From Spongiibacter marinus (GTDB lineage: Bacteria; Pseudomonadota; Gammaproteobacteria; Pseudomonadales; Spongiibacteraceae): a DNA stretch of 64,000 nucleotides. The DNA lies in the NCBI RefSeq assembly GCF_016906995.1, contig NZ_JAFBBD010000011.1, positions 1-64,000 on the forward strand, given 5' to 3'. Both the position numbers and the translations under genes were made by a program. Under the pieces are notes generated by a model, which worked only from the letters and a program-made list of their open reading frames with translations, was not told the origin of the DNA and did not search any database. Shown in pieces: positions 7,253 to 38,044 of the stretch; the first letter of the stretch is position 1, and each line of letters opens with the position of its first letter.

Positions 7253-7274
7253 CGACAAACTTTTGAGGTGATTG

Positions 7275-9776
7275 ATGTTTAATCGTTATGTATATCTTGG
7301 TGGCCTAGTGCTGGTCTCCGGGTTTGGCTGTATGAAAGCTGTTCATGCGGCGCCAATGCTTGAGGAGGTTTTGGTAACTGCGCAAAAGAAATCTGAAAGC
7401 ACCCAGGATACGCCTATAGCGATAACGGGGATGTCGGAAAACACATTGGAAAAATTTGGCTTTTCCAGTGCTAACGATATCTCGGCTCAAGTACCAAATA
7501 TGCAGGTTAGTGGTCCTTACGGGGATGTTCAGCCGATATTTTCAATCAGGGGGGTGAGTATGTCTGATTACTCCTCTAATCAAGCCAGCCCTATCGGTGT
7601 GTACAATGATGAGGCATACATGGGCGCGGTATATACTCATGGGATGAGCTTTTTTGATGTGGCTCGCCTAGAGGTACTACGGGGGCCGCAGGGAACGCTG
7701 TATGGTAAGAATACGACTGGTGGTGCGATAAACATCATAACAAAGACCCCAGAAATTAATGAGGGGTTTCACTACAATATTAAGCAAGGTATCGGTAACT
7801 ATAATAGCCAGAAGGGTGACTATGGTGTTGAGGGTACGTTAATAGAGGATGTTCTGGCAGCAAGATTGGCGTATTCATATTCGCGAAGAGATGGTTACTA
7901 CGAAAATCGATTTGGCGGAAATGACCTCTCCCAGCAAGATTTTCAGGGGGCCAGATTAGTTCTTAATGCAAATGTTTCCGACAATATAAATATGGTGTTT
8001 AAGTACACCAAGGCCAGAAATGACGGCCTAGCTAGCCCTAGTAGAAACGAACCTCGTGGCGATTTATCAAAAAACCCTGCATTGGTTACAGCGCTAGAGA
8101 CGGCTGGCGTCGGTGTAAATGATCGGCCAAATAATGGCTACATAGATATAGTTGGCTATTCTCGGCCGGCAGAAGGTCTGGATTATTATGAAGTTGACGA
8201 CAACTTCACTGGTCCTTTGGTCGTTAATCTGGATCAGTTGGTGCATAAGATTGAATATTTGAATGATTCATACACATTGACATCTATTACCTCATATACA
8301 GACAACGACTACGCCCAGGCTCAAAACGTTGATGGTAGTCCCGAGGAGCATCTCGAAATTAACTGGTCCGTAGCAACCCAGGCCTTCAGTCAAGATCTTC
8401 GGCTATCTACAACCCTTGGCGACGATGTCGACTTAATTGCTGGCGCGTACTATGCCTGGGAAGATCAGCAACTCCATAATATTTATAGCCTTTATGGCAC
8501 GCCTCCGGATTTGAGAACTGCGGTGACCTTTCCTGGTGTTACCGGTTACTATCCCTATCTTCTTGACTTTGGTGCTCTTGACCAGAAAATGGACACAGAG
8601 AAGGAAAGCCTTGCTGTTTATTCTCAGCTGAGATGGAATATTACGGCGCAGCTCGGCATGGATTTTGGGCTACGCTATACGGAGGACAGTGTTGATCTTC
8701 GCTACTTGAACATCTCCCGCGTCGGCTATGATGGATCACCCCGCGGAACATATGTACCGGGGAATACGACAGGAGTCGATAACATTTTTATACCCCTCAA
8801 CGTCGCTGGTCAGAGTCCGTTAGAGCCTGGGCTGCTCATACAACAGCTGTTGAGTGGTGATCTAACATTGGACGATATTTTGCTAACAGCTCGTACAGGC
8901 TATACCCATGGCCCGTACACCACAGAATCGGCAACACCGATGAGCTCAAAGGAGAAAGAGTGGACGGGTAAGCTTGGCATTGACTACAGATTTAATGATT
9001 CGCTTATGGTTTATGCGTCATACAGTAAAGGCTTTCGCTCGGGCAATTTCAATTCAGGTGTGTACTATGAGGAGCGTGATTTTGAGAATGCCTATGCCTC
9101 GCCAGAGTTTCTTGACGCTTATGAGTTAGGTTTTAAGGCTGACTTTTGGGATAGAAGAGGCCGTGTCAATAGTGCCTTTTTCTATTATGACTACACAGAT
9201 CAACAATTTATTAATGTGGTTGGTGTGTCTAACTTCCTCGAAAATGCCGGTGGCTCGAAGATAATCGGGTTTGAGTCGGAGATGTTTTTTGCCCTTACAG
9301 AGAAGCTAACGGCGCAAATTGGTGTTGGTATTCTTGAAACTGAATACACTGAGCTTGAGCTTTCAAATGTTCAGACCGTTAATGATGACGATGATGTTGT
9401 TGACCTGTCTGGGAATGAGTTAATTTCGGCGCCGAAAATAAGCGCTAACGTTTCAATTGACTGGGAGCTGTTAAGTAATTCCTACGGCTATCTTAGCTTA
9501 AATGTAAACGGTAATTATCAGGACGATCAGTGGTACAGCGCGTACAATGATAAAATCGGTTACGACAAAATTAAGCAAGATGCTTACGCTATATATAATG
9601 CAAGAGTTACCTGGTTTTCACACAATGAAGATTATAGTGTGGCGTTATGGGGGAAAAACATTACGGAAACCAAGTACGACGCGTATGCAATAAATCTACA
9701 AGCAGGTTTTGGTTTTGATTACTACCAGCAAGGTGCGCCGGCAACTTATGGGCTTGAATTTACCTATAGATATTAA
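7275..9776 (+). CDS. TonB-dependent outer-membrane receptor
   Basis: This 833-residue outer-membrane transporter has an N-terminal signal peptide (to about residue 26, ending VHAAP), then a TonB-box-like segment EEVLVTAQKK, a plug domain (about 40-160) with SIRGVSM and ARLEVLRGPQGTLYGKNT, and a 22-strand-type barrel ending in aromatic residues (FTYRY). A TTG lies one codon upstream, but GAGG at 7265-7268 is spaced better for the ATG at 7275. The receptor belongs to the broad 'TonB-dependent receptor' group common in marine and sphingomonad degraders, not to a named siderophore class. Between the alkB and CYP153 modules, uptake of a hydrophobic substrate is a reasonable inference. The gene for a small secreted protein follows 29 bases later. 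Confidence 0.93.
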   Translation: MFNRYVYLGGLVLVSGFGCMKAVHAAPMLEEVLVTAQKKSESTQDTPIAITGMSENTLEKFGFSSANDISAQVPNMQVSGPYGDVQPIFSIRGVSMSDYSSNQASPIGVYNDEAYMGAVYTHGMSFFDVARLEVLRGPQGTLYGKNTTGGAINIITKTPEINEGFHYNIKQGIGNYNSQKGDYGVEGTLIEDVLAARLAYSYSRRDGYYENRFGGNDLSQQDFQGARLVLNANVSDNINMVFKYTKARNDGLASPSRNEPRGDLSKNPALVTALETAGVGVNDRPNNGYIDIVGYSRPAEGLDYYEVDDNFTGPLVVNLDQLVHKIEYLNDSYTLTSITSYTDNDYAQAQNVDGSPEEHLEINWSVATQAFSQDLRLSTTLGDDVDLIAGAYYAWEDQQLHNIYSLYGTPPDLRTAVTFPGVTGYYPYLLDFGALDQKMDTEKESLAVYSQLRWNITAQLGMDFGLRYTEDSVDLRYLNISRVGYDGSPRGTYVPGNTTGVDNIFIPLNVAGQSPLEPGLLIQQLLSGDLTLDDILLTARTGYTHGPYTTESATPMSSKEKEWTGKLGIDYRFNDSLMVYASYSKGFRSGNFNSGVYYEERDFENAYASPEFLDAYELGFKADFWDRRGRVNSAFFYYDYTDQQFINVVGVSNFLENAGGSKIIGFESEMFFALTEKLTAQIGVGILETEYTELELSNVQTVNDDDDVVDLSGNELISAPKISANVSIDWELLSNSYGYLSLNVNGNYQDDQWYSAYNDKIGYDKIKQDAYAIYNARVTWFSHNEDYSVALWGKNITETKYDAYAINLQAGFGFDYYQQGAPATYGLEFTYRY

Positions 9777-14845: not shown

Positions 14846-15166
14846 TTGGGCAAGGTTACATTTATAGAGCACGATCAAACCAAACATGTCGCTGAGTTCA
14901 AGCATGGTTCCTCGCTAATGCAAATTGCCGTAGACAATGCTATTCCTGGCATCGACGGTGATTGTGGAGGAGAGTGCGCTTGTGGCACTTGCCACGTCAT
15001 TATCGCAGACGAATGGTTCAGCAAGACCGGTGTGCCTAATGAAGAAGAGGAGCAGATGCTGTCGATGACACCTGAGCGAGCCAGTACGTCGCGCCTGGGC
15101 TGCCAGGTGATTGCTACTGACGCGATGGACGGCATTTTCGTCTATTTACCCGAGTTCCAAATGTGA
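14846..15166 (+). CDS. [2Fe-2S] ferredoxin, electron donor to CYP153
   Basis: This 106-residue adrenodoxin/putidaredoxin-type ferredoxin has cluster ligands in DCGGECACGTCH (about 40-51) and a last cysteine in RLGCQVIAT (about 86). It ends with LPEFQM, a tail shared with the second ferredoxin at 25.7 kb. The start is a TTG preceded by AGGAGAA at good spacing; no ATG fits the conserved N-terminus GKVTFIEHD. It lies 14 bases before the P450 ATG, so the two are translated together. A ferredoxin reductase, usually present in CYP153 operons, is absent here. Confidence 0.93.
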   Translation: MGKVTFIEHDQTKHVAEFKHGSSLMQIAVDNAIPGIDGDCGGECACGTCHVIIADEWFSKTGVPNEEEEQMLSMTPERASTSRLGCQVIATDAMDGIFVYLPEFQM

Positions 15167-15180
15167 GCATAGGAGAGCGC

Positions 15181-16599
15181 ATGTCAACAATATCCAAAAC
15201 GCTTTACGATATTCAGTCCCATGTGATTAATGCTACATCCAAAATCGTGCCGATGCACAGGCAAATTCACGGGCTTAAACTATTGATGGGTGCTAAAAAG
15301 AAAGCCTTCGGTACACGCCGCCCGGTACCTGAATTTGTTGAGTCAGCGATTCCGGACGTAAACACGCTCGCCCTAGAGGATATCGATGTCAGCAATCCAT
15401 TTCTATATAGGCAGGATCAGTGGCGCGCTTATTTCAAACGGTTGCGTGATGAGGCTCCGGTTCATTACCAAAAGAAGAGTCCTTTTGGTCCTTTCTGGTC
15501 GGTAACTCGATATGAAGACATCATGTTTGTAGATAAAAGGCACGACCTGTTTTCCGCCGAGCCGCAGATTATTCTGGGTGACCCTCCGGAGGGGCTGTCG
15601 GTGGAGATGTTTATAGCGATGGATCCGCCAAAGCACGATGTGCAGCGCAGCTCGGTCCAGGGAGTGGTCGCACCGAAAAATTTAAAGGAATTGGAAGATT
15701 TAATTCGATCTCGTACCAAAGATGTACTTGATAGCTTGCCCTTGGAAAAACCTTTCAACTGGGTACCCATGGTATCAAAGGAGCTGACGGGTCGAATGCT
15801 TGCAACACTGTTGGACTTTCCTTATGAAGAACGTCACAAGTTAGTTGAATGGTCGGACCGTATGGCTGGTGCGGCATCAGCGACTGGTGGCGAGTTTGCT
15901 GATGAAGGGTCAATGTTTGATGCTGCAGCAGACATGGCAAGATCCTTTTCCAAGCTTTGGCGGGATAAGGAGGCCCGGCGCGCGGCGGGGGAAGAGGCTG
16001 GTTTCGACTTGATCAGCTTGCTACAGAGCAACGAAGACACTAAAGATCTTATCAATCGCCCGATGGAGTTTATTGGCAACCTGACGCTACTTATCGTTGG
16101 TGGCAATGACACTACTCGTAACTCAATGAGTGGTGGTTTAGTGGCCATGAAAAAATTCCCTCAAGAATTTAAAAAGCTGAAGGCAAAGCCGGAGCTGATT
16201 CCTAACATGGTATCGGAAATCATTCGTTGGCAAACTCCGCTGGCTTACATGCGCAGAATCGCGAAGCAGGATGTTGAGTTGGGCGGAGATACCATCAAAA
16301 AGGGTGACCGTGTAGTAATGTGGTATGCTTCGGGTAATCGGGACGAACGAAAGTTCGAAAACCCAGATGATTTTGTCATTGATCGCAGAGATGCGCGGAA
16401 TCACATGTCGTTTGGATACGGAGTTCACCGTTGTATGGGTAACCGTCTAGCTGAATTACAGCTCCGCATTCTCTGGGAAGAGCTTCTTAAACGTTTTGAT
16501 AAAATCGAAGTAGTTGCCGAGCCTGAGTTGGTTCAGTCAAACTTCGTACGCGGCTATTCAGAACTTATGGTTAAGCTATCCCCAAAAAACGACAGTTGA
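15181..16599 (+). CDS. Cytochrome P450 CYP153 family alkane hydroxylase
   Basis: CYP153 enzymes hydroxylate medium-chain alkanes at the terminal carbon in the cytoplasm. This 472-residue protein shows the I-helix oxygen-binding motif GGNDTTRNS (about residue 304), the K-helix ExxR in SEIIRWQTP (about 345), and the heme-binding loop FGYGVHRCMGNRLAE (about 410-424). The N-terminal half carries the family-like blocks LRDEAPVHY and AMDPPKHDVQR. A GTG overlapping the ferredoxin stop lies upstream, but AGGAGA five bases before the ATG at 15181 favours that start. It is co-transcribed with the preceding ferredoxin and probably activated by the divergent AraC protein. Confidence 0.95.
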   Translation: MSTISKTLYDIQSHVINATSKIVPMHRQIHGLKLLMGAKKKAFGTRRPVPEFVESAIPDVNTLALEDIDVSNPFLYRQDQWRAYFKRLRDEAPVHYQKKSPFGPFWSVTRYEDIMFVDKRHDLFSAEPQIILGDPPEGLSVEMFIAMDPPKHDVQRSSVQGVVAPKNLKELEDLIRSRTKDVLDSLPLEKPFNWVPMVSKELTGRMLATLLDFPYEERHKLVEWSDRMAGAASATGGEFADEGSMFDAAADMARSFSKLWRDKEARRAAGEEAGFDLISLLQSNEDTKDLINRPMEFIGNLTLLIVGGNDTTRNSMSGGLVAMKKFPQEFKKLKAKPELIPNMVSEIIRWQTPLAYMRRIAKQDVELGGDTIKKGDRVVMWYASGNRDERKFENPDDFVIDRRDARNHMSFGYGVHRCMGNRLAELQLRILWEELLKRFDKIEVVAEPELVQSNFVRGYSELMVKLSPKNDS

Positions 16600-17099: not shown

Positions 17100-17978
17100 T
17101 CACTGCATCATCTCAATTAATACCCGTTCTGGCGCTGACAACTCCGTACCATGGCGGTGGGCGCAGCAAAGCTCAACAGAGCCCACGTATTCAATAGGTA
17201 ACAGAGAAAAGCGCGTCAGAAAGTCCGCATTGCTGCGATACGCGCGACCAACAAAGGCAACTGCATCCGTTGCCGCGACCACTTCACAAACTAGTGGAAA
17301 ATAGCCGATGATATGAATCTGGTGGTCGAGGGGAATCTCGGTTTTACCCAGCAGCTTGCTGGTAATCTCTGGCGACCCACCATCGCGTTCAGGCAGCACC
17401 AGAGGATAATCCAGAATTTCCTTAGGAGTAACTTTTTTTAACCTGGCCAGGGGGTGGGAAGCGCGCACAAAGAAACAACCGGCAAAAGGCCTGACCGGAA
17501 TGGTTTTTAGCTCAGAATGCTCCCTCAAGGCCCGGCTTGAACCGATGATCATGTCGGCGTCGCCCGCCCGCAACAGACTCACAGCCCGTTCACTCGCCAC
17601 CGATTTGATTTCGACTTTCAGACGCGGGTAGTACTGCAGCAACTGGGGCAGCGCCGAGTTCAACAAGCTCACCAGGGGTGGCGGGGAAATGCAGAGCCGC
17701 AGCTGGGACTCTCGGTACTCACGAAAGGTTCGGGCATCCGCACTTAACTGATCGATATCTGCCAGAATACGCGACGCCCTGTCGATAATATTGCGCCCCA
17801 ACGCGGTTGCCCGCATACCCCGCGCACGGCGCTCAAACAACGCGAAACCCAGCTCCTTTTCCAGTTCTGCCACGGTGCGGGTCAGACTGGGCTGGGAAAC
17901 ATGAATCGCCTCTGCCGCCGCGCTCATCGACCCATAGCGATCCACTGCAACAATGTAGCGCAGTTTATTAGTGTTCAC
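17100..17978 (-). CDS. LysR family transcriptional regulator
   Basis: The 292-residue protein has the LysR winged helix-turn-helix at residues 1-60 (LRYIVAVDRYGSMSAAAEAI, then VSQPSLTRTVAELEKELG) and a periplasmic-binding-fold effector domain (about 90-290). Translation must start at GTG 17978, since no ATG precedes the conserved N-terminus; a G-rich stretch (GTGGGGGCG) lies just upstream. It is divergent from the storage-lipid operon and is a candidate regulator of it. The MITE at 17992-18264 begins only 13 bases before the start codon, so the native promoter has been displaced or replaced. Confidence 0.9.
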   Translation of the reverse strand: MNTNKLRYIVAVDRYGSMSAAAEAIHVSQPSLTRTVAELEKELGFALFERRARGMRATALGRNIIDRASRILADIDQLSADARTFREYRESQLRLCISPPPLVSLLNSALPQLLQYYPRLKVEIKSVASERAVSLLRAGDADMIIGSSRALREHSELKTIPVRPFAGCFFVRASHPLARLKKVTPKEILDYPLVLPERDGGSPEITSKLLGKTEIPLDHQIHIIGYFPLVCEVVAATDAVAFVGRAYRSNADFLTRFSLLPIEYVGSVELCCAHRHGTELSAPERVLIEMMQ

Positions 17979-17991
17979 ACCGCCCCCACGT

Positions 17992-18264
17992 TAGGGCCTG
18001 TTGACACTAATTGAATTGCACCTGCTGGCGGTCATTTTTGCCTCCAGCTAGGCGGAGTGAGCGCAGTTTGGTCATTCCAAATAAGCGAACTCCAACAACG
18101 CTGGGGGCAAAAATGGCCCCAGCCCTCCGGGTTGTGGCTAAAAATCCACCACTCTTCGTTGTTCGTCGTTCATTTGGAATAACCAAACCTCTCTCCTCAC
18201 GCCTTGATTGGTGAATTTTTAGCCACAACAACAGGCGTAATCCAATTAGTGTCAACAGGCCCTA
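17992..18264. mobile_element. MITE-like element with 22-base perfect terminal inverted repeats
   Basis: The left end GGGCCTGTTGACACTAATTG (17994-18013) is matched exactly, in inverted form, at 18243-18262; including the flanking TA the match is 22 bases. A TA on each side fits a TA target duplication of the Tc1/mariner-IS630 type. The 273-base interior has no gene but contains further inverted segments, such as GTTGTGGCTAAAAAT near 18130 against ATTTTTAGCCACAAC near 18216. It could therefore fold into a long hairpin. It lies between the lysR and plsB starts. Confidence 0.85.
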
Positions 18265-18384
18265 GGCTCCAGTACTGTGACATGGTATGCGTAAAACGTA
18301 TATTACAAAAATAATAGTATTGGACGGTATATCTTATAGCGTGTCAAATGCCCCAAATGGCCAGAACAAGCGAAGGAACTCAAC

Positions 18385-20799
18385 ATGCTGGATCGCACCG
18401 AAATGAGCCCTCACGGCGCCGCCAATACGCAGCTAGGCCAAGCCAACACCCAGCATGCAGCCACCCCGATGAACACTGAAAGCCCAAACCGCACGAACAC
18501 GGAAAGTATCCCTAACCTGCAAACTGAAAGCGTGCTGTTTTTGATGGACGCCGGCACAGATGTAGAAGCCCGTTTCCTGAAGGACAAAATCGTCGCCTGG
18601 CAAATGGAAACCGACTTTGCCGGGCGCTGCGACCAAGTCTGTGTTGATATCGCACGCTCCCAGGAGAACATCTCAGCAGACTCTCTTGCCAAAAAGATTA
18701 CCGAGCACGCCGCCAGTATCATCGTGCCGGTCAGGCTGACCTGGCTGACCTCTGTCGACGGTAAAAACGCTACCCCGCGGGTGCGGGATCTGTTATTTGC
18801 AAACCCGAGAAAACCCAACAATAGTAAGGCGGCGTCCATTCTCAAGCACCACCCCGAGTTTTCCCGCTTTATTGTTGCCGAAGCCGCCAGCATGAGCGAA
18901 TTGCTCAACCGCTATCGGACCCAAACCGGTCAAACAGACCCCAATGACAAAACATTTGCCCAATACATTGCCGGTCAGGCCGGACTCGCCCTTGATGTTG
19001 AAGAGCGCAGGCTGCGTGGCGGGCGCTACAAAGTGCCCCGCCGCGTTGCCGAAGCATTGCGCAATGACCAACGCTTCCGCACCGAGCTCGAAGCACTCCA
19101 GCAGGCGCAAGACCAAACACCTGAGCATGTTGATCGGGAAGTGTCCCGTATCATGGAAGAACTGATCGCTAAGCCCAGCACTTTCTGGCAAGACATTTTT
19201 GGCGGGCTCAGCCGCTTTATCTCCTCGCTGGGTTACAACAAGCATGTCCGCCTAGACCGGGACAAGCTGGAAAACGTGCGGAAAATCGCCCGCAATCACC
19301 CTACCGTGTTTCTGTTTACTCACAAGTCTCACATCGATGGCTTTGTACTTAACGCCGTATTATTTGACGAAGACTTCCCGCCCCCACATATTATTGGCGG
19401 CAACAATATGGCCTTTTTCGGCCTCGGTTTTATTGCCCATCACGCCGGCACAATTTTCATACGGCGCAACTTTCAGGACAGCCCAGCTTACAAGCTGGTA
19501 CTGCGTCACTACCTCGGCTATTTGCTGAACAAGCGTTTTCCCATGAGTTGGGCCTTTGAAGGCACCCGCTCCCGCACCGGCAAGCTGATGCCCCCACGTT
19601 ACGGCATCCTCAAATACGTACTTGAGTCGATGCAGCCCCGGGACATTCGAAACCTGCACATTATTCCGGTATCGATTAACTACGACCTGATCGAAGACGT
19701 AAAAGACTACGCAACCGAGCAACAGGGTGGCATCAAACGCCCGGAATCCCTGAAGTGGTTTTTGGAATACCTGCGGGGCATGCAACGCCCCATGGGCCAT
19801 ATTCATATGGACTTTGGCGACGCGGTGGTAGTGCCTGAGGCCCCCGATCTCAGCGACAAACTGGAACTGCAAAAGCTGGCTTTCCGGGTGGGAGTCGAGG
19901 CCAACAGGGTATCACCGCTCACTTCGGCATCTATCGCCTGCATGATATTGTTAGGTGCTTCGCCTCGCGCATTGACCGCTGAAGAACTACTGTTAGACAT
20001 GAGCCGTTGCGTTCAATGGGCCAGGGTGCGCGATATCCCCCTTACCGAGGAGCTATCCACCTCGCCGCAAACCGCGCTGCTGAATCTGCTCGATATTCTG
20101 GTGACCAATAATCTGGTTACCCGCTATGACGGCGGGCCGGAAGTGGTCTACGCCATTCCCGAAGACCAGCACGGCGAAGCCAGCTACTACCGCAATACCG
20201 TCGCCCATCACTTTGTTTCAAAAGCGATCACCGAGATGGCGCTGATGAAGCTGACCGTAGTCTCACCGGAAACCCCCGTTGAGGCCTTTTGGGAAGAAGT
20301 GGAACGCCTGCGGGACTTTTTCAAGTTTGAGTTTTTCTACGCCGACAAACAGCAGTCCCTCACCAATATCAAATCCGAACTCGCCATCTATGACACCGAG
20401 TGGGAAGCAAAACTGCAGGCAGACACCGCTTACGCCAACAATCTGCTGCTGAGCTTTACGCCGATTACCGCTCACGCCGTGTTACTCCCCTATATCGAAG
20501 GCTATCGGGTGGTTGCCGAGGTCATCTCGCTCTACACCGCCAACGAGTCGCCCACCGAGAAGGATGTGCTCAACAAGGCCCTTGCCTATGGCAAGCAGGC
20601 CCTACTGCAACGGCGCATCAGCAGCCCGGCCTCTATTGGCAAGGTGACTTTTCAAAATGCGTACAAGCTTCTCGACTCCCGGAGCCTGATGGCAAGCGGT
20701 GGCGAGGACATCGAACAGGCTCGGCGGGAACAAAGCCAGGAAATCAGAATGCTGGCTCGCCGCCTGGAAAGACTGAGGGCCATTTCTCTTCAGCACTAG
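18385..20799 (+). CDS. PlsB-type glycerol-3-phosphate acyltransferase
   Basis: This enzyme transfers an acyl chain to the sn-1 position of glycerol-3-phosphate, giving lysophosphatidate at the inner membrane. At 804 residues it has nearly the length of E. coli PlsB. The four acyltransferase motifs are visible: HKSHIDGF (about residue 314), GTIFIRRNF (about 355), FEGTRSRTGKLMPPRYG (about 392) and IIPVSINYD (about 428). AAGGA lies upstream of the ATG. It opens a plus-strand operon with the next acyltransferase, WS/DGAT and lipase genes. That context suggests a role in making storage lipid, perhaps as a second copy beside a housekeeping plsB. I leave the symbol open for that reason. Confidence 0.93.
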   Translation: MLDRTEMSPHGAANTQLGQANTQHAATPMNTESPNRTNTESIPNLQTESVLFLMDAGTDVEARFLKDKIVAWQMETDFAGRCDQVCVDIARSQENISADSLAKKITEHAASIIVPVRLTWLTSVDGKNATPRVRDLLFANPRKPNNSKAASILKHHPEFSRFIVAEAASMSELLNRYRTQTGQTDPNDKTFAQYIAGQAGLALDVEERRLRGGRYKVPRRVAEALRNDQRFRTELEALQQAQDQTPEHVDREVSRIMEELIAKPSTFWQDIFGGLSRFISSLGYNKHVRLDRDKLENVRKIARNHPTVFLFTHKSHIDGFVLNAVLFDEDFPPPHIIGGNNMAFFGLGFIAHHAGTIFIRRNFQDSPAYKLVLRHYLGYLLNKRFPMSWAFEGTRSRTGKLMPPRYGILKYVLESMQPRDIRNLHIIPVSINYDLIEDVKDYATEQQGGIKRPESLKWFLEYLRGMQRPMGHIHMDFGDAVVVPEAPDLSDKLELQKLAFRVGVEANRVSPLTSASIACMILLGASPRALTAEELLLDMSRCVQWARVRDIPLTEELSTSPQTALLNLLDILVTNNLVTRYDGGPEVVYAIPEDQHGEASYYRNTVAHHFVSKAITEMALMKLTVVSPETPVEAFWEEVERLRDFFKFEFFYADKQQSLTNIKSELAIYDTEWEAKLQADTAYANNLLLSFTPITAHAVLLPYIEGYRVVAEVISLYTANESPTEKDVLNKALAYGKQALLQRRISSPASIGKVTFQNAYKLLDSRSLMASGGEDIEQARREQSQEIRMLARRLERLRAISLQH

Positions 20800-20862
20800 T
20801 CTGCCAATACGGAATAGCGGCCCTTCGCAGAAGCGACCCAAACGACTTTAGTGAGAGCAGCC

Positions 20863-22332
20863 ATGCCATCGATCACCACAACCAAACCCCTGAACGACCT
20901 GAAAGCCGCCATCGACGCCGCACCCAAGGGAAAGAAAATCGTCGCCTTTTTTGATTTTGACGGCACGATTATCGAAGGTTACTCGGCGGGGCTTTATCTG
21001 AAAAGGCTTTTTAAGGAGCGCAGCCTGTCACCCCGTGATTACGTGGAGATAGTCAGCTTTCTCTTTCTGGAAGACCCCACCGACGACGAGTTTGCCAATC
21101 TGCTTCGATGCTGCTTGAAGAACTGGAAAGGCAAAACCGAAGACGAAGTACGCCAACTTTGGCTGGAGCTATTTATTGCCGAACTTGGCGCCCGCATTTA
21201 CCCGGAAATCAGCGAGATTATTCGCGCCCACAAACGCCGTGGTCACAGGATTGTGGTGGCCTCGTCAGCGCTGAAATACCAGATCGAACACTGCGCCGAG
21301 GCACTGGAGATCGATGAGATTCTGGCATCCCGTGCTGAGCTGGTCGACGACCAGTTCAGCGGCGACATCGACGCACCAACCCTGTGGGGAGAGGGTAAGG
21401 CCCAGGCCGTAAGCGATTACGCCAAACGCCATAAGTTGAATCTCGATAACTGTTTCGCCTATGCCAACGGCAGCGAAGATGTCGACTTTCTCTCCGGCGT
21501 TGGTCACCCCTGCGCGGTAAACCCCTCATCAAGACTGACCGCCGCCGCGCGCAAAAATGCCTGGCCACAGCTCCGCTTTCGCTCGCCGACCAAGGTCAGC
21601 GTTAATGAAAAAGTGCGCACTATCGCCAGCGACGCCGGCATGGGCTTGTCGCTGCTCGGCACCTTGGTTTCAACCGTGGCCGGCACCCCCAAGCGCAAGG
21701 CGCTGAACCGGCTGTTTAATCTGGGTAGTGATATCGGCCTGGCCGCGGCGGGAATCAAGCTGAATATTATCGGCGAACAGAATTTGTGGGCCCAGCGCCC
21801 GGCGGTCTTTATCTTCAACCACCAGTCACCACTGGACCTGATTATTGGCGTAAATCTTATCGGGCGGGACTTCACCGGGGTGGTGAAAAAAGAAGCCAAG
21901 GACATGTTCGGCTGGGGCCATTTTATGCAGTTTTCGGAGATGGCCTTTATCGACCGGGGCAATACCGCCCAGGCCAAAGAGATGCTTGCCCCCGCCATCG
22001 AAAAACTCAGCCGCGGAATTTCAGTGGGTCTCTGCCCTGAAGGCACCCGATCCTATACGCCCAAGCTCGGCAAATTCAAAAAGGGCGCCTTCCATATTGC
22101 CATGCAGGCCGGTGTGCCCATTGTTCCGGTGGTCCTTCGCAACGCCGCCGAGTGCATGTCACGCGACAGCCTGTGGATGCGTCCGGGCACGGTGGATGTC
22201 TGTGTGCTGCCCCCCATCGATTGTATCGACTGGACCCTCGACAACATGCAGTCACACATCGATGAGATTGAAAACAGCTACCGGGAAATCATTGCCGACT
22301 GGCCCGGCACCACCCAGTACGCTATCGCCTGA
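20863..22332 (+). CDS. HAD-IB phosphatase fused to PlsC-type 1-acylglycerol-3-phosphate acyltransferase
   Basis: Residues 20-230 form a HAD-superfamily IB hydrolase with the catalytic motif FFDFDGTI, a VVASSA motif II and a lysine-bearing AVSDYAKRH segment. Residues 270-480 form a PlsC acyltransferase with NHQSPLD (about 320), FIDRGN, CPEGTRS (about 390) and VPIVPVVLRN. The PlsC half would acylate lysophosphatidate to phosphatidate. The HAD half could then remove the phosphate to give diacylglycerol, though that reaction is inferred from context. A GTG lies 12 bases upstream of the ATG, but GAGAG suits the ATG at 20863. The gene lies 63 bases after plsB and 12 before the WS/DGAT gene. Confidence 0.92.
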   Translation: MPSITTTKPLNDLKAAIDAAPKGKKIVAFFDFDGTIIEGYSAGLYLKRLFKERSLSPRDYVEIVSFLFLEDPTDDEFANLLRCCLKNWKGKTEDEVRQLWLELFIAELGARIYPEISEIIRAHKRRGHRIVVASSALKYQIEHCAEALEIDEILASRAELVDDQFSGDIDAPTLWGEGKAQAVSDYAKRHKLNLDNCFAYANGSEDVDFLSGVGHPCAVNPSSRLTAAARKNAWPQLRFRSPTKVSVNEKVRTIASDAGMGLSLLGTLVSTVAGTPKRKALNRLFNLGSDIGLAAAGIKLNIIGEQNLWAQRPAVFIFNHQSPLDLIIGVNLIGRDFTGVVKKEAKDMFGWGHFMQFSEMAFIDRGNTAQAKEMLAPAIEKLSRGISVGLCPEGTRSYTPKLGKFKKGAFHIAMQAGVPIVPVVLRNAAECMSRDSLWMRPGTVDVCVLPPIDCIDWTLDNMQSHIDEIENSYREIIADWPGTTQYAIA

Positions 22333-22344
22333 AAGGATCCGAAC

Positions 22345-23730
22345 ATGACAGCAACAACCCCTTCACCTGAGCCGACAATCTGGCATGCAGATGATAGCCT
22401 CAACGCCTTTGAGTCGCTGATGTGGCGCCTCGACAGATACGACAACCTGCGCTCAGCGGTGTGCGGCATAGAAGTCATTGAAGGCACGCTTTCGAGCGAC
22501 GAGATCCGCAAGGTATGTAACTACTTACTACAGCGCGCACCCCGACTGTCGCAACGCCTGGTAAAAGCCCTGCCCTTTACCAATCCGGTCTGGCAGACCG
22601 ACACCCACTTCTCTCTGGACAACCACCTGATCCTGGTGGACGGGGGCAACTGCGGCCTCGACGAGGTGTTCGACATAACCGCAGATTTCGCCATGGATGA
22701 CTTTAACCGGGCGCATTCCCCCTGGGAGCTGATGTATGTTTCGAATCTCGAAAACAATCAATCGGCCTTGATCATCAAGATTCATCACGCCATGTCTGAC
22801 GGGATTGGAATCGCGCAACTGCTCGACATTCTTCACAGCGATATTCCCGAACAGGTCGACGATTTTGGCAGCCAGGATGGCCAGCCCAAAACACCGGCGC
22901 TGACGGTTTTGCGACGCTCACTGCTCTCTCGCGAAGCACTCAAAACCCGCGCCCAACGTTCTGGCGCCCTGCTCGTCAAACTTTCCCGCCGTAAAGGCGC
23001 TGCCAGCGAGCTCGCCCGCTATGTCTCATCCCTGAGCCGGGTACTCTCCCCGCCGGATGCCAAGCCCTCGCCGCTGATGTCCCACCGCAACGACCGCTGG
23101 CAATTTGACGGCTTCACCCTTCCCCTTGACGCGATGAAAGGCGCGGCAAAAAGCCGCTCGGTCAAACTGAACGACATCTTTATCGCAGGCGTGTTGCGCG
23201 GCTTTTGGCTGTACCACGAGCACGCCGGTGTTGAACACCCCGCAGTGCCGGTCACCATCCCGGTGAATGTCCGCCCGGAAGGCAAACAGGGTGGCGGCAA
23301 TCACTTTGTACCATTGCAGATTTCCGGGCCGCTGTGCGGCGATACCGCTCAGCTGATTTCCGTCGTCAATCGGCAGGTTCAGCGCAAGCGCCGGGAGGTC
23401 GCCCTGACCGCGCCCATGTTACTGATGCCGGTACTGAATTCGCTTCCGGATTCGCTGGTGGCCCGGCAGATGTCTCAGCAGTTGCGCGGCACCGACATTC
23501 AGATGAGCAATGTGCCAGGCACTCAGAATCGGCCCAGCCTGGCGGGTAGGCCCGTCACTGCCCTCTATCCCTTCGCGCCCTTACCGGGTTGCGCTGCAAT
23601 GATCTCGCTGGTTTCTATCGCCGAAGACTGCTATGTCGGCTTGAATCTCGACAGCGCTGCGGTCACCGACAAAGCCCTGCTCAAGCAGATGATTCAGCAG
23701 GGCTTTAACGACATTTTCAACGAGGGCTAA
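22345..23730 (+). CDS. Wax ester synthase / diacylglycerol acyltransferase (WS/DGAT)
   Basis: This bifunctional enzyme esterifies a fatty alcohol or diacylglycerol with acyl-CoA, making wax esters or triacylglycerol at the membrane-lipid droplet surface. The 461-residue length is normal. The catalytic motif HHxxxDG is present as HHAMSDG (about residue 147), and LNDIFIAGVLRGF (about 273) matches the second conserved block. The C-terminal MSNVPG segment (about 388) is typical too. AAAGGA precedes the ATG. Its neighbours supply the diacylglycerol precursor and a monoacylglycerol lipase, which favours triacylglycerol as a main product. Fatty alcohols from alkane oxidation could also make it a wax ester synthase in vivo. 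Confidence 0.95.
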   Translation: MTATTPSPEPTIWHADDSLNAFESLMWRLDRYDNLRSAVCGIEVIEGTLSSDEIRKVCNYLLQRAPRLSQRLVKALPFTNPVWQTDTHFSLDNHLILVDGGNCGLDEVFDITADFAMDDFNRAHSPWELMYVSNLENNQSALIIKIHHAMSDGIGIAQLLDILHSDIPEQVDDFGSQDGQPKTPALTVLRRSLLSREALKTRAQRSGALLVKLSRRKGAASELARYVSSLSRVLSPPDAKPSPLMSHRNDRWQFDGFTLPLDAMKGAAKSRSVKLNDIFIAGVLRGFWLYHEHAGVEHPAVPVTIPVNVRPEGKQGGGNHFVPLQISGPLCGDTAQLISVVNRQVQRKRREVALTAPMLLMPVLNSLPDSLVARQMSQQLRGTDIQMSNVPGTQNRPSLAGRPVTALYPFAPLPGCAAMISLVSIAEDCYVGLNLDSAAVTDKALLKQMIQQGFNDIFNEG

Positions 23731-23736
23731 CAGACC

Positions 23737-24579
23737 GTGAAACTAAGTAAATTCAAAGGCTGCCGCGGCGAAAGCATCGCGTGGCAGTGCTGGACACAGG
23801 ACGCGCCCATCGCCTCGGTGGTGATCTCTCACGGCCTGGGCGAGCACGGCGGTCGTTATGCACCCATGGCGGAACGGCTACACCGGGATGGCTATAATGT
23901 TTTTGCCATAGACCACCGGGGTCACGGCCGGTCCTCCGGACGCCGCGGCGACATTTTCAACTTTGAAGATTGCATCGCCAACCTAGCCACCTTGATCAGC
24001 ACCGTGGTGCGCCCATTGGGTTGCCCAGTGATTCTGTTTGGCCATAGCATGGGCGGCGCCATTGCCACCGGTTACACCTTAAAACATCAGGGCCAGTTCG
24101 CCGCTTTAATGCTCTCTGGCCCGGCCCTGTCTACCGAGCTGGTACCGGGGCCAATGAAGCTCATCAGTAAATATCTGGCTAAGGCGGTGCCGTTTCTGCC
24201 GGTGCTGAAAATCGACCCCAGCCTTGTGAGTCGCGACCCGGAACAAGTGCGCGGCTACGAGGATGACCCATTGAATCTTCACGGCAGCGTGCCCATTCGC
24301 ACCGTTGCTGAACTGGCAGCGGCGATTGACCCAATGCCCAAGCAGTTCTCAAAAATCACTCTGCCGCTGTTGGTAATGCACGGCGCCGAGGACCAATTGA
24401 TACCCGCCGAGGCCAGCAAGGTGCTGTATGACAACTGCACCAGCGAAGACAAAACCCTGAAGATTTATCCTCACTTGTACCACGAGATTCTCAACGAACT
24501 ACCCGAGGATCGCGCCCGGGTACTCGCGGATATCAGTGACTGGGTGCATACCCGCTATGCCAATGCCGAGGTGAGCTAA
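23737..24579 (+). CDS. Monoacylglycerol lipase-like alpha/beta hydrolase
   Basis: The 280-residue protein matches the lysophospholipase/monoacylglycerol lipase group ('Hydrolase_4'). It has SHGLGEHGGRY near residue 31, IDHRGHGRSSG near 61, the nucleophile elbow GHSMGG near 103, and the catalytic Asp and His in HGAEDQLIP (about 211) and YHEILNE (about 248). It starts with GTG six bases after the WS/DGAT stop, so translation is probably coupled. It would finish glycerolipid breakdown by releasing fatty acid and glycerol. Confidence 0.93.
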   Translation: MKLSKFKGCRGESIAWQCWTQDAPIASVVISHGLGEHGGRYAPMAERLHRDGYNVFAIDHRGHGRSSGRRGDIFNFEDCIANLATLISTVVRPLGCPVILFGHSMGGAIATGYTLKHQGQFAALMLSGPALSTELVPGPMKLISKYLAKAVPFLPVLKIDPSLVSRDPEQVRGYEDDPLNLHGSVPIRTVAELAAAIDPMPKQFSKITLPLLVMHGAEDQLIPAEASKVLYDNCTSEDKTLKIYPHLYHEILNELPEDRARVLADISDWVHTRYANAEVS

Positions 24580-24590
24580 AGGCCAGGCCG

Positions 24591-25054
24591 ATGATACGCA
24601 CTCTTGAAAATACCCTTGCCAATGCCTCCTGCTATGAGGAGTGGCGGAACGCTGCGCAAAAGCTCGACGAGCTGACCGGCATGGATTATTGGAAAGAGAC
24701 TGACCGAACCGGTCATTACGACTACCGATCAATACGTCGACGACTGGATTCCCTGCGGGAGCTGCTCGCCGATGGCAACCAACGCGGGGTGCTCTACGCC
24801 TTGAACGAAGGTATTCACGGCAATATGGGCGGCATGGGAAACATGCGTCTGTATACCCAGGCCGGCTTCGGCACCAAAACCCTTATTGTTGAATTCATTG
24901 AGGAGATGGTCGCCGCACTCCAATTTTTGGCAAGCAGCAAATCCGACAATATCCCCCTCGCCGAAAAACAGGATTTTCCGGCGCGCGAGCCGCTGCGCAG
25001 GGCGTTCCGCGCTAATATTAAGCGGCTCCGGCAACTTTTTTTATTTCCATCTAG
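24591..25054 (+). pseudogene. Patatin-like lipase with DUF3336 N-terminus, frameshifted and truncated
   Basis: The first 128 or so residues are a DUF3336-type domain: YEEWRNAAQKLDELTGMDYW, then YALNEGIHGNMGGMGN, then GTKTLIVEFIEEMV. Homologues continue with FFRRAS, GRSAL, LSGGG and FHLGV, the start of the patatin domain. Here that block (FRRASRCAGRSALILSGSG, then FHL) is in another frame, so a small frameshift lies near 24972. At about 25053 the gene stops against IS630-type sequence, before the catalytic GxSxG. The remnant was probably a triacylglycerol lipase belonging to this operon. As it stands it encodes about 160 residues and should be inactive. Confidence 0.85.
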
Positions 25055-25728
25055 TGGCTCATGCGGAAAATAATGTAACGTTAAGACGAGGAGGTGTATA
25101 GCGTTTTTCCTATGCGTACTCCCAAATCTCTACACGTTTCTGACGATACCGCAGCCACTCTTAACGAATGGTGCCGGTCAACGACTTTGCCGCACGGGCA
25201 GATCATGCGAGCGAAGATTATTCTTCAGCTCAGCGAAGGTATGACTCCCACAGAGGTTGCCACCGCACAGCGGACCTCGGCAAAGACGGTTCACCGCTGG
25301 CGCAACCGCTTCGAAGAAGAAGGCGTTGAAGGGCTACAAGAACGCGCTCGCAGCGGAAGACCTACCGTCATTGATAAGAAGACCGTAGACCGGGTTCTGT
25401 TTCTAACGACAAAGCGGATACCACAAGAAGCGACGCACTGGAGTATTGAGCTGATGGCTAAGTACGCTGAAGTGACGCCATGGCAGGTCCGCCAGATATG
25501 GGAAGCGGCTGATTTGCGTCCTCATCGGCTAAAGACATTCAAGATCAGTAATGACCCTAAGTTCTCTGATAAGGTGATCGACATTGTTGGGCTGTACATG
25601 AATCCGCCGGACAATGCTGTCGTTATGAGCGTTGAAGAGAAGACACAAATTCAGGCCTTGGATAGGACGCAACCTGGCTTTCCTCTAAGCCCGAGTCGAA
25701 TTGGAAACCGGACACATGCCTCTATTTA
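25053..25728 (+). mobile_element. IS630-family element, right end missing
   Basis: The left boundary is placed at the TA at 25052-25053, where the patatin gene breaks off; IS630 elements insert at TA. The right boundary is abrupt at about 25728, just outside the stop codon of the minus-strand ferredoxin gene. Only the N-terminal half of the transposase remains. Confidence 0.7.
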
Positions 25729-25729
25729 A
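25094..25729 (+). pseudogene. IS630-family transposase, truncated
   Basis: The 211-residue frame holds the two helix-turn-helix domains of IS630 transposases (EVATAQRTSAKTVHRWRNRF, then the ARSGRPTVI linker and WQVRQIWEAADLRPH) and the start of the DDE domain (MSVEEKTQIQALDRTQPG). Full-length members have about 340-360 residues, so the second Asp and the Glu of the triad are lost. The first catalytic Asp, usually in 'VDEK', is Glu here. The start may be GTG 25094 or ATG 25112; GAGGAGG lies just before the GTG. Confidence 0.88.
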
Positions 25730-34247: not shown

Positions 34248-35318
34248 TTACGATGCTGGTGGCAACACATTCCTCATTTTGCCGAGTAAGTGCTGTGCGT
34301 TCAGGTGTGTATATCGATTGAGCATGGCGATGGTTCGATGGCCAGTAATCAGTTGGGCTTCATGGGGCTCAAGGTGGTGCCGTTCGAATAATCGACTGGT
34401 TGCCTCGTGTCTCAGGTCGTGGAATCGAAGGTCTTGTAAATTGGCTCTCGCTGCACTTCGTTCAAATGCTTGCCGGATCTGAGGTGCGTTGCTGCCAAAC
34501 ACGCGGGAGCCTTCCTCTGTGCTCTCGCTTCGCAGCGACGTAATCTCCTGCGCTAAGTTGTACGAGAGGGGGAATTTCCGCGCATCATTGTTCTTAGAGA
34601 ACTTGCGGTCTACCGTGACGAACGTGACGCCCAGTTGCGGGTCTTTGTATATATCTTGCCAGCGCAGTTGGGCGATTTCCGCCTGCCGCATTGCGGTTTC
34701 CAGTGCAAATCGTACTATTAGGCCTATTGGGGTTGTGCACCGAGTGTCTGTTTCATACTTAGCGCAGGCTTCCAGAAGTTTTTCTTCCTCATTGGGGAGT
34801 AGGCGTCGGTCTCGGGCGTTGTTTACTTTGGGAAGGCAGCCGGGTTTTACGGGGTTGTCGAGATTGAAGCCCAGTCGTGCATTGGCCAGATTATAGGCAG
34901 TGCGAATAAAGCCGACATTTTGCTTGATCGTGGCGGCTGCTACGGGTGGGTGTGCCTTGCGGAGCCGGTTTACCATCTCGGCAATGTGGCTTGTGCAGAA
35001 GGAGTCCGCAGGAATGCCTAACAAATCTGGGTGCTGTGCCTGCAAAGAGCGAATTTTTGAGGTGGTGGTGCGTCGAGTATTGGGTTTCCACTCTTCGGTT
35101 TTCTGCTCAATGAAGACATCGAGCAGTTCGCCAACCGTGATGGTGGCGCCCCGTAATGCGGCGTCAAAGCGGTGGGTGCGGGCGGCTTTGGCAAGCTGAT
35201 TTAGCCACTGTGTGGCCGCTTCTTCGGTATCAAAGCTTCTGCTGATTCGCTGCCCTTGTTGCGTCACCCGTGCTCGGTAGCGAGAACCCCGTTTGTCGAT
35301 AGAGCCAAAAAATTTCAA
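34248..35318 (-). CDS. Tyrosine recombinase / phage-type integrase
   Basis: The 356-residue integrase has an N-terminal arm-binding-like region (YRARVTQQGQRISRSFDTEEAA), a core-binding SAM-like domain (about 60-165) and the catalytic domain (about 175-345). The catalytic residues are Arg in ETAMRQAEI (about 216), HDLRHE (about 302-307), the His in GHRT (about 331) and Tyr in NRYTH (about 340). All are present, so it may be active. It is transcribed divergently from nothing obvious; about 230 bases upstream lie two ATGCCCCC repeats that may be integrase arm sites. Confidence 0.92.
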   Translation of the reverse strand: MKFFGSIDKRGSRYRARVTQQGQRISRSFDTEEAATQWLNQLAKAARTHRFDAALRGATITVGELLDVFIEQKTEEWKPNTRRTTTSKIRSLQAQHPDLLGIPADSFCTSHIAEMVNRLRKAHPPVAAATIKQNVGFIRTAYNLANARLGFNLDNPVKPGCLPKVNNARDRRLLPNEEEKLLEACAKYETDTRCTTPIGLIVRFALETAMRQAEIAQLRWQDIYKDPQLGVTFVTVDRKFSKNNDARKFPLSYNLAQEITSLRSESTEEGSRVFGSNAPQIRQAFERSAARANLQDLRFHDLRHEATSRLFERHHLEPHEAQLITGHRTIAMLNRYTHLNAQHLLGKMRNVLPPAS

Positions 35319-36153
35319 TGCCTGTCTCTCCCGTCGGAAGGTTTCGAGAAGACAGTGGGAGAGTGCGGAACATAGTTAGCGTGTGAGCGGCGCGCATTTG
35401 TCCAGGATTGGTCCAAAACGGCGGCATTGCCACATCGCAATTTTTAAAAGTCTAGGAATATCAAGAAATTAAGTGGTGCAGAGGCATAACATAATTAACG
35501 TATTAACTATTTGATTATTAAGTTTATTTTATTGATAAAATTAGTATATGCCCCCTTTTATGCCCCCGGTTTTTGCGCCTGGGTCGTATGATTCAATTTT
35601 CAAGGAAGATGGTGGCAGGCAAAGAGCTGGCCATCCAGCTTCATTGGTCAATGATACTGGGTGTGATCAACTGCGCCAGAAGTTATACTCGTCTGTACTT
35701 TGGGCGGCTGCATGCTAATTATGGTCAGATTCGATAGCCCTATAATAAAATCAATTTTCCCATACTGGACATTCAGTCGTAAAAACGTCCAGCTATCGGC
35801 TGGGCACGAAATATCTTTCCCGCCGCGTTTGATAAAATGAGCGTTAACGACTTTCCGCATATGGGTATTTGACTAATCTAGCAAACAAAAGACATCTTGC
35901 CGCAAAAGGGGAGTAGTTGACGCGTCGATCAATGGTCTGTTCGGTTCATTTGTTCTGCTGTCCGATTAAAGGACGCCTGTGTCCAGTTTCGTGATGGTGC
36001 TGTCCATCAGCTCGACTTGAAATAACCAATCATTGCTCTAGGTTGCCCAGCTGTTTGACAGTTTCCAATGAAAATACCGAAGTGGTCGATTAAGTCGGAT
36101 ATATTTATACACTAGCTTGACTGAAAGGAAGCATTTGAGGGAGATCAAATTTT
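35319..36153. other. Intergenic stretch of the island, no gene recognised
   Basis: These 835 bases between the integrase and the small membrane-protein gene are AT-rich near 35460-35550. They contain the repeat pair at 35548-35567. The minus-strand frame 35648-35860 shows no domain. The attachment site of the first integrase could be here, but I found no duplicated core. Confidence 0.4.
35548..35567. repeat. Two direct repeats ATGCCCCC, possible integrase arm sites
   Basis: ATGCCCCC occurs at 35548-35555 and again at 35560-35567, a 12-base period, upstream of the integrase at 34.2-35.3 kb. The second integrase has a similar GCCCCCAG array upstream of it. Confidence 0.4.
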
Positions 36154-36465
36154 ATGGGTTTTAAGATTATTATTGCTGCTCTAATTATTGCTGCGGCTAT
36201 AGTGCTATCACCATTTATCTTTAATAGTATTAATAATGCGGTGGAGGAAAAAAAGGTAGATCAAGCCATGAACAATCGAGAAATGGCTGACATTGCGGTC
36301 TTGGAAATGTCTGCTCAAGAATATAAAGACATGTATGGTCGTTGTCCCACCTCTGTTGCAGATATGGTTGGTAAATTTATAGCAAGAGAGCCGCGAGACA
36401 GATATGGAGTAAGTTACCAAACTGATGAACAATGCCAATTCGGCTCTTTGGATAATCCGCTGTAA
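36154..36465 (+). CDS. Small membrane-anchored protein, pseudopilin-like layout
   Basis: I cannot assign a function. The 103-residue protein starts MGFKIIIAALIIAAAIVL, a short leader with Gly, then Phe and a hydrophobic helix (about residues 4-26). A polar helix follows, then YGRCPTSVADMV and EPRDRYGVSYQ, which recalls the 'PKDPWGxPY' end of GspG-type pseudopilins. The Glu normally at position 5 of the mature pilin is absent, and no secretion-system genes lie nearby. Two cysteines (in GRCPTS and EQCQFG) could pair. GGGAG precedes the ATG. Confidence 0.65.
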   Translation: MGFKIIIAALIIAAAIVLSPFIFNSINNAVEEKKVDQAMNNREMADIAVLEMSAQEYKDMYGRCPTSVADMVGKFIAREPRDRYGVSYQTDEQCQFGSLDNPL

Positions 36466-36670
36466 ATCTTGAGCTGGTCTCCGGGTTTCTCGGAGGCTGA
36501 CTTCCGTGAGAGAGTAAGCTGATAAGCAAACGACCTAGATATTCTCTCGAAGTTCGCTTGAGCTATATTCCACTTGAAAGGGGTGGCTGCGAAATTATCT
36601 AAAATTTCGGGGGTTATGCAGAGATTCCTTAGCGTACGCACCTTCATCTGGTATGAAGTGATTATTGGGT

Positions 36671-37990: not shown

Positions 37991-38044
37991 TATTTACCCA
38001 TGAAATTGAAGTGAATTTTCAGGTGCCCTATGTCGTTTTCTACT

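Follow-up and report, generated by a model that had tools for sequence, protein, structure and literature searches.

The window analysed here is a stretch of 64,000 nucleotides from Spongiibacter marinus (contig NZ_JAFBBD010000011.1), and positions 18385 to 25073 carry a predicted operon of glycerolipid genes that stands back to back with a gene for a LysR-type regulator. The locus is probably best explained as an accessory Kennedy-pathway operon of mosaic origin, controlled through the LysR protein and a conserved promoter block. A Kennedy set in one operon is already known; as far as the literature was searched, what is new here is the mosaic together with the LysR-promoter block shared within the genus. 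Neither of the two was found in print among the matches listed, subscription papers being outside the search. The five genes of the predicted operon are the following.

18385-20799, + strand: plsB-type glycerol-3-phosphate acyltransferase, 804 aa (PF19277, PF01553)
20851-22332, + strand: HAD-IB domain fused to PlsC (HAD-PlsC), 493 aa counted from the GTG at 20851
22345-23730, + strand: WS/DGAT-family acyltransferase (PF03007, PF06974; HHxxxDG motif intact)
23737-24579, + strand: monoacylglycerol lipase (MGL)-like alpha/beta hydrolase (PF12146, 251 bits)
24591-25073, + strand: DUF3336 remnant of a patatin-like lipase gene (PF11815, 124 bits)

The initial annotation had placed five genes in this order on one strand, and so they are found, with gaps of 51, 12, 6 and 11 bases; the fusion probably starts at the ATG at 20863, which would lengthen the first gap to 63 bases. 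We infer that the five genes are co-transcribed. A generic scan for promoters and terminators gave no useful signal, the numbers found (6 and 9) being close to those expected (5.4 and 9.8).

The family assignments rest on profile matches and motifs. PlsB scores 726.5 bits against NF002886 (cut-off 721), the fusion matches TIGR01490 (134.2 bits) and TIGR00530 (105.6 bits) above their cut-offs, and the WS/DGAT protein does the same for PF03007 (84.5 bits) and PF06974 (59.3 bits). The WS/DGAT protein falls short of TIGR02946 (206.4 bits, cut-off 309.95), which counts against the explanation offered here; the only structures it matches at E 0.1 are 7nxg and 6chj. The top solved relative of the hydrolase is the M. 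tuberculosis monoglyceride lipase 6eic (201.5 bits). Catalytic motifs are visible in the translations: HKSHID, of the form HX4D, and EGTRSRTGK in PlsB, DFDGT and NHQSPLD/PEGTR in the fusion, and GHSMGG, HGAED and YHE in the hydrolase. The WS/DGAT translation contains HHAMSDG.

By family these enzymes cover the steps from glycerol-3-phosphate through lysophosphatidate to phosphatidate and from diacylglycerol to triacylglycerol (TAG), as had been claimed for them. PlsB would convert glycerol-3-phosphate to lysophosphatidate, presumably with acyl-CoA; the PlsC half of the fusion would carry this on to phosphatidate, from which the HAD half would probably remove the phosphate to give diacylglycerol, and the WS/DGAT enzyme would complete TAG. 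The MGL-like hydrolase may support turnover of partial glycerides. If this is true, the locus offers another testable case in which a single operon leads from glycerol-3-phosphate to storage fat.

Evidence for a mosaic comes from trees of the three acyltransferase genes. Partners stay together in most operons; in the window operon they do not. Its plsB lies within a gammaproteobacterial and sphingomonad plsB clade (bootstrap/approximate likelihood ratio test, aLRT, 100/100), whereas its HAD-PlsC pairs with that of Panacagrimonas L051 (100/99), as does its WS/DGAT, the latter in a quick tree only (SH-aLRT 99). Approximately unbiased (AU) tests, with groups defined only after the first trees had been inspected, reject the window plsB with the Nevskiales-type plsB (log-likelihood difference 277, p 1e-68) and the window HAD-PlsC in the gamma/alpha clade (difference 55, p 1.9e-4). 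The late choice of groups, and the long branches on which the tree tool flags the window proteins, detract from the argument; the exact sister of the window genes is less sure than the apparent split between two lineages. As judged from these trees the operon is apparently a mosaic, its plsB drawn from a gamma/alphaproteobacterial operon lineage and its HAD-PlsC and WS/DGAT from a Nevskiales clade. The Panacagrimonas L051 operon has the order plsB-HAD-PlsC-WS/DGAT, as in the window, and supplies the HAD-PlsC (47%) and WS/DGAT (39%) nearest to the window's among the rows compared, but in plsB it falls in the other lineage.

The second line of evidence lies upstream of plsB, where three features are found.

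17100-17978, - strand: LysR-type regulator, divergent from the operon (PF00126, PF03466)
17992-18264, strand not assigned: element resembling a miniature inverted-repeat transposable element (MITE), 273 bp, with inverted ends TAGGGCCTGTTGACACTAATTG
18284-18350, + strand: conserved regulator/promoter block, common to same-genus LysR-HAD-PlsC loci

The nine nearest LysR matches in the genus (49-70% identity) are all divergent to a HAD-PlsC match, the match ends lying 90-128 bases apart, and in all nine HAD-PlsC is followed by a WS/DGAT match. Nine further LysR matches (41-45%) have no adjoining HAD-PlsC match. In the four LysR-linked loci with wide flanks, neither plsB nor MGL was found in the region. 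When upstream regions were aligned to the intergenic region of the window, eight of the nine LysR-linked relatives scored above every one of 200 shuffles, against 0/10 control regions upstream of other operons; the upstream regions of the window and its LysR-linked relatives are evidently homologous. The strongest alignment, to L144 (65/77 identical, 18273-18350), extends as far as the opening codons of the L144 LysR gene, and those to L139, L034 and L040 (18300-18350) are clear of LysR codons. L147, with a LysR of 49% identity, showed no alignable block upstream.

This LysR gene and its putative promoter precede a HAD-PlsC-WS/DGAT pair in 9 of 17 other genomes of the genus, and the four such pairs placed in trees belong to the gamma/alphaproteobacterial lineage. 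In other species of the genus, the regulator and promoter behind which the mosaic sits would serve a different HAD-PlsC-WS/DGAT pair; on the simplest reading, the control region was kept and the payload exchanged. The divergent LysR protein would probably control the operon through the block at 18284-18350. We lean slightly toward a broader view, in which LysR and promoter form a fixed control cassette in the genus before exchangeable fat-synthesis payloads, with regulation kept and enzymes replaced, and in which the payload of this species, behind the same cassette, has four genes: a gamma-type plsB, a Nevskiales/actinobacterial-type HAD-PlsC-WS/DGAT block and an MGL. If true, the locus would exemplify enzyme exchange under a retained regulator, and the recurrence of the LysR-promoter block before different payloads may help to show when lipid synthesis is turned on in such bacteria. 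The core 20-mer of the block was also sought across the organism's own genome, and a regulon was rejected: there is one perfect site and one with 3 mismatches, with 0 for the reversed control. Three same-genus genomes (L043, L049 and G001:C1:410816) have a second LysR type (41-43%) at 10.7-11.2 kb from the HAD-PlsC match.

The association of these genes extends well beyond the genus. HAD-PlsC matches occur in 15/57 genomes at E 1e-30, with up to 4 per genome in the window's genus, and, within the order, in 36/390 genomes at E 1e-60, the organism's own genome being counted in both cases. A survey of named records took the best 80 HAD-PlsC loci, comprising 75 full-length fusions and 5 HAD-only partial matches; a second set comprised 19 regions from genomes of the same order, and partners were sought within 5 kb. 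At the full-length loci, many of which come from related mycobacteria and other actinomycetes so that the counts are not independent, plsB is present in 59/75 (56 on the same strand) and WS/DGAT in 41/75 (34 on the same strand). At least one partner is found at 62 of these loci, both at 38 and neither at 13. The corresponding figures for the same-order regions are 18/19 with at least one partner and 7/19 with both, and for the HAD-only matches 0/5 with either. Linkage of plsB and WS/DGAT to HAD-PlsC is beyond chance. The 13 loci with neither partner tell against the explanation offered here; some lie on short contigs, but L082, L106, L113 and L118 are fully flanked.

The genes of the window operon are evidently related by descent to those of known operons, with plsB apparently from a different branch than the other two. 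A search of gene neighbourhoods had been proposed, and it recovers the window's order, plsB-HAD-PlsC-DGAT-MGL, at L135 and L136 in the same genus and at L052 and L054 in the Nevskiales. A DUF3336-patatin gene is included in the order HAD-PlsC-DGAT-patatin-MGL-plsB (L148 and L149, same genus) and in HAD-PlsC-plsB-DGAT-patatin-MGL (L074, L094 and L127, Sphingomonadales). With the window genes left out, HAD-PlsC distances correlate with WS/DGAT distances (r 0.945 within the genus, n=15, with 0/2000 permutations as high; r 0.881 over all loci, n=55) and with plsB distances (r 0.97, n=8; r 0.865, n=68). Species history alone apparently cannot explain the within-genus co-divergence of HAD-PlsC and WS/DGAT. 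A further order, plsB-DGAT-HAD-PlsC, is seen at L138, L140 and L142 of the same genus. All three of their genes cluster with the mycobacterial clade, which suggests that the complete set moved from one phylum to another. The record at L070, Rhodococcus sp. IEGM 1409, is labelled Cyanobacteriota in the origin table, and its HAD-PlsC groups with Rhodococcus.

Comparison with published systems, each described here from the available text of its source, places the operon in a known class. It had been suggested that in most bacteria these genes are scattered, but the operon is not unusual: the same idea of a single operon for all TAG enzymes was already proposed by Amara 2016 (PMC4850399), and Galván 2023 (PMC10351704) describes complete Kennedy clusters in Actinomycetota, Alpha- and Gammaproteobacteria. 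The candidate description of an unprecedented operon was rejected in view of these reports. In Rhodococcus jostii RHA1, WS/DGAT, plsB and a plsC encoding an AGPAT-HAD fusion lie together and are transcribed as an operon, atf9-plsB-plsC (Amara 2016, PMC4850399). Glycerol-3-phosphate acyltransferase (GPAT), HAD-PlsC and WS/DGAT adjoin on one strand in the window, an arrangement of the same type; the RHA1 order differs, however, and the available text names no MGL or DUF3336 gene there and the main text no LysR. The marine gammaproteobacterial clusters of Galván 2023 (PMC10351704) combine GPAT, 1-acylglycerol-3-phosphate acyltransferase (AGPAT)/phosphatidic acid phosphatase (PAP) and WS/DGAT with an alpha/beta hydrolase or lipase, as here, and the Sphingomonadaceae have complete Kennedy sets, but the text available mentions neither a two-lineage mosaic nor a shared LysR-promoter block. 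The adjacent mycobacterial genes Rv2482c-Rv2483c-Rv2484c-Rv2485c encode plsB2, HAD-plsC, a TAG synthase and a carboxylesterase, for which a role in TAG formation was proposed (PMC10699116, PMC3503283), and M. smegmatis PlsB2 acylates sn-1 of glycerol-3-phosphate using acyl-CoA (PMC10593935). Unlike the window, the 13 mycobacterial loci with all three genes on one strand have the order WS/DGAT-HAD-PlsC-plsB, and their HAD-PlsC proteins are 37-39% identical to the window's.

One of these reports weighs against a storage function. The RHA1 operon was less expressed under the nitrogen limitation in which TAG accumulates, and was called 'house-keeping' (Amara 2016, PMC4850399); a storage role is therefore not a given.

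The other lipid genes of the genome (3.57 Mb, 29 contigs) bear on how far the operon stands alone. An E. coli-type PlsB is encoded elsewhere (842-aa frame, contig 4, TIGR03703 779 bits); PF01553 has 11 matches, one a 250-aa frame that could be the housekeeping PlsC; PAP2 is matched twice; and there are three further WS/DGAT genes, each above the TIGR02946 cut-off, unlike the operon copy. Because of the E. coli-type PlsB, the 250-aa frame, the two PAP2 matches and the three other WS/DGAT genes, the operon is an accessory set. The claim that it is self-contained for storage lipid was overstated, and the argument that no phosphatase is encoded elsewhere was rejected in view of the two PAP2 matches, either of which could supply the phosphatase step in place of the HAD half. 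To go by its title, one study (PMC3599759) concerns PAP enzymes in TAG synthesis of Streptomyces coelicolor. A second Kennedy operon on contig 4 was considered and rejected, as the 842-aa and 569-aa acyltransferase frames found near each other are the E. coli-type PlsB and the ornithine-lipid synthase OlsF.

It is plausible from its sequence that the HAD half is a phosphatidate phosphatase. A profile built from 43 fusions finds T. maritima PlsC (5kym), the uncharacterised HAD protein 3fvv and phosphoserine phosphatases, and a Foldseek search with the AlphaFold model of HAD-PlsC (mean predicted local distance difference test, pLDDT, 91.6; predicted template-modelling score, pTM, 0.87) agrees, finding 3fvv, SerB and 5kym. 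In an alignment of 95 rows the HAD core is kept at D35 (92/95), D37 (87/95, with 5 more being alignment gaps), T39 (89/95), S138 (81/95; Ser or Thr in 93/95), K183 (95/95) and D210 (93/95). We take D35 and D37 to be the DxD nucleophile motif, S138 the Ser/Thr of motif II and K183 the Lys of motif III; all are present in the window protein.

Motif IV departs from this pattern. The window protein has D210, but its Asn206 aligns with what is the first Asp of GDGxxD in phosphoserine phosphatases, and this makes it less safe to assume that all fusions are Mg-dependent phosphatases. The residue here is Asp in 61 of the 95 rows; the others have Asn (29), Gly (4) or Ala (1). Because 28 of the 29 Asn rows fall within one 37-row tree group (SH-aLRT 93), the remaining one being L109, the Asn is apparently a lineage feature and not decay of a single gene. 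The window, Nevskiales and Rhodococcus jostii-type fusions are among these 28 rows, and the natural Asp/Asn split would offer two enzyme classes for comparison.

These observations allow a different account of the phosphatase step, which we regard as possible though not favoured: the acyltransferases make TAG, a PAP2 enzyme encoded elsewhere removes the phosphate, and the HAD half acts on another substrate or has a regulatory role. The two PAP2 matches and Asn206 are consistent with it. At the top of the Foldseek matches stand HAD hydrolases without an assigned function, together with phosphoserine phosphatases, and none of the 50 listed carries the name lipin; PAP2 is the enzyme previously proposed for this step, according to Amara 2016 (PMC4850399). 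Against it stand the retention of the HAD core in nearly all 95 fusion rows, from several phyla, the report of no PAP2 near the WS/DGAT genes studied in the available text of Galván 2023 (PMC10351704), and the PlsC fusion and operon linkage, which point to the same lipid. The proposal that the HAD domain is the missing phosphatidate phosphatase dates from 2016 (Amara 2016, PMC4850399), and the function of HAD-PlsC was still said to remain to be elucidated in 2023 (Galván 2023, PMC10351704); the text examined reports no activity for any HAD-PlsC fusion, a further point against the assignment. The locus would be a compact place in which to test it.

The two ends of the operon bear marks of mobile elements. 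At the 3' end the DUF3336 remnant matches PF11815 only and lacks the catalytic patatin domain, whereas a 500-aa frame elsewhere in the genome has both; beside it lies an insertion sequence (IS) fragment.

25094-25729, + strand: truncated IS630-family transposase (NF033545 positions 2-167 of 299)

The terminal lipase gene would have been cut off beside this fragment, of which no second IS630 copy was found in the genome. At the other end the MITE-like element lies between LysR and the conserved block; its near-perfect inverted ends begin and end in TA, and the genome has four further near-full-length copies (81-85% identity) and fragments. These elements could indicate decay, and it might be argued that the locus is degenerating after the MITE and IS630 insertions and is weakly or not expressed, as the truncated lipase and transposase genes and the separation of LysR from the block would allow. 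We consider this quite improbable: four operon frames of 280-804 codons are open with their catalytic motifs, and past the MITE the promoter core is still conserved.

The initial annotation also placed the operon between two alkane modules and suggested that hydrocarbon carbon is stored directly. A CYP153-type P450 is indeed encoded at 15163-16599 (955.5 bits to 5fyf, 865.9 to 8b2p 'Cytochrome P450 alkane hydroxylase' and 451.6 to CYP153A7, 3rwl); ferredoxin and AraC-type genes flank the operon on both sides, and aldehyde dehydrogenase, Fe-alcohol dehydrogenase and acyl-CoA ligase genes lie downstream. Direct storage lacks comparative support. Over 99 loci around related operons, P450 has 8 matches at no more than 30.2% identity, so that a conserved P450 neighbour was rejected; aldehyde dehydrogenase has 10 matches (up to 42%) and acyl-CoA ligase 20 (up to 41%). 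Acyl-CoA synthases also occur in such clusters (Galván 2023, PMC10351704, available text).

The same neighbourhood has some bearing on the product, as members of the WS/DGAT family use fatty alcohols or diacylglycerol (Galván 2023, PMC10351704). An operon for wax esters or other acyl esters, or for membrane lipid and housekeeping turnover of acylglycerols, in place of storage TAG, would fit the CYP153-type and alcohol dehydrogenase genes nearby, the MGL and lipase genes in the set and the 'house-keeping' label of the RHA1 homologue. It seems unlikely nonetheless, since plsB and plsC are glycerolipid genes that wax esters do not need, and the P450 is not a conserved neighbour.

In the Kennedy-pathway operon preferred here, GC content at third codon positions is 0.61-0.71, above the 0.39-0.58 of the flanking genes measured, LysR (0.61) excepted, and the present gene neighbourhood may be recent. 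The stretch 34251-39274, close to alkane-type genes, holds two integrase genes of phage type and one gene for an Mrr-like restriction endonuclease. Upstream, the neighbourhood also has a fatty acid desaturase gene (4858-6060) and a TonB-dependent receptor gene (7272-9776).

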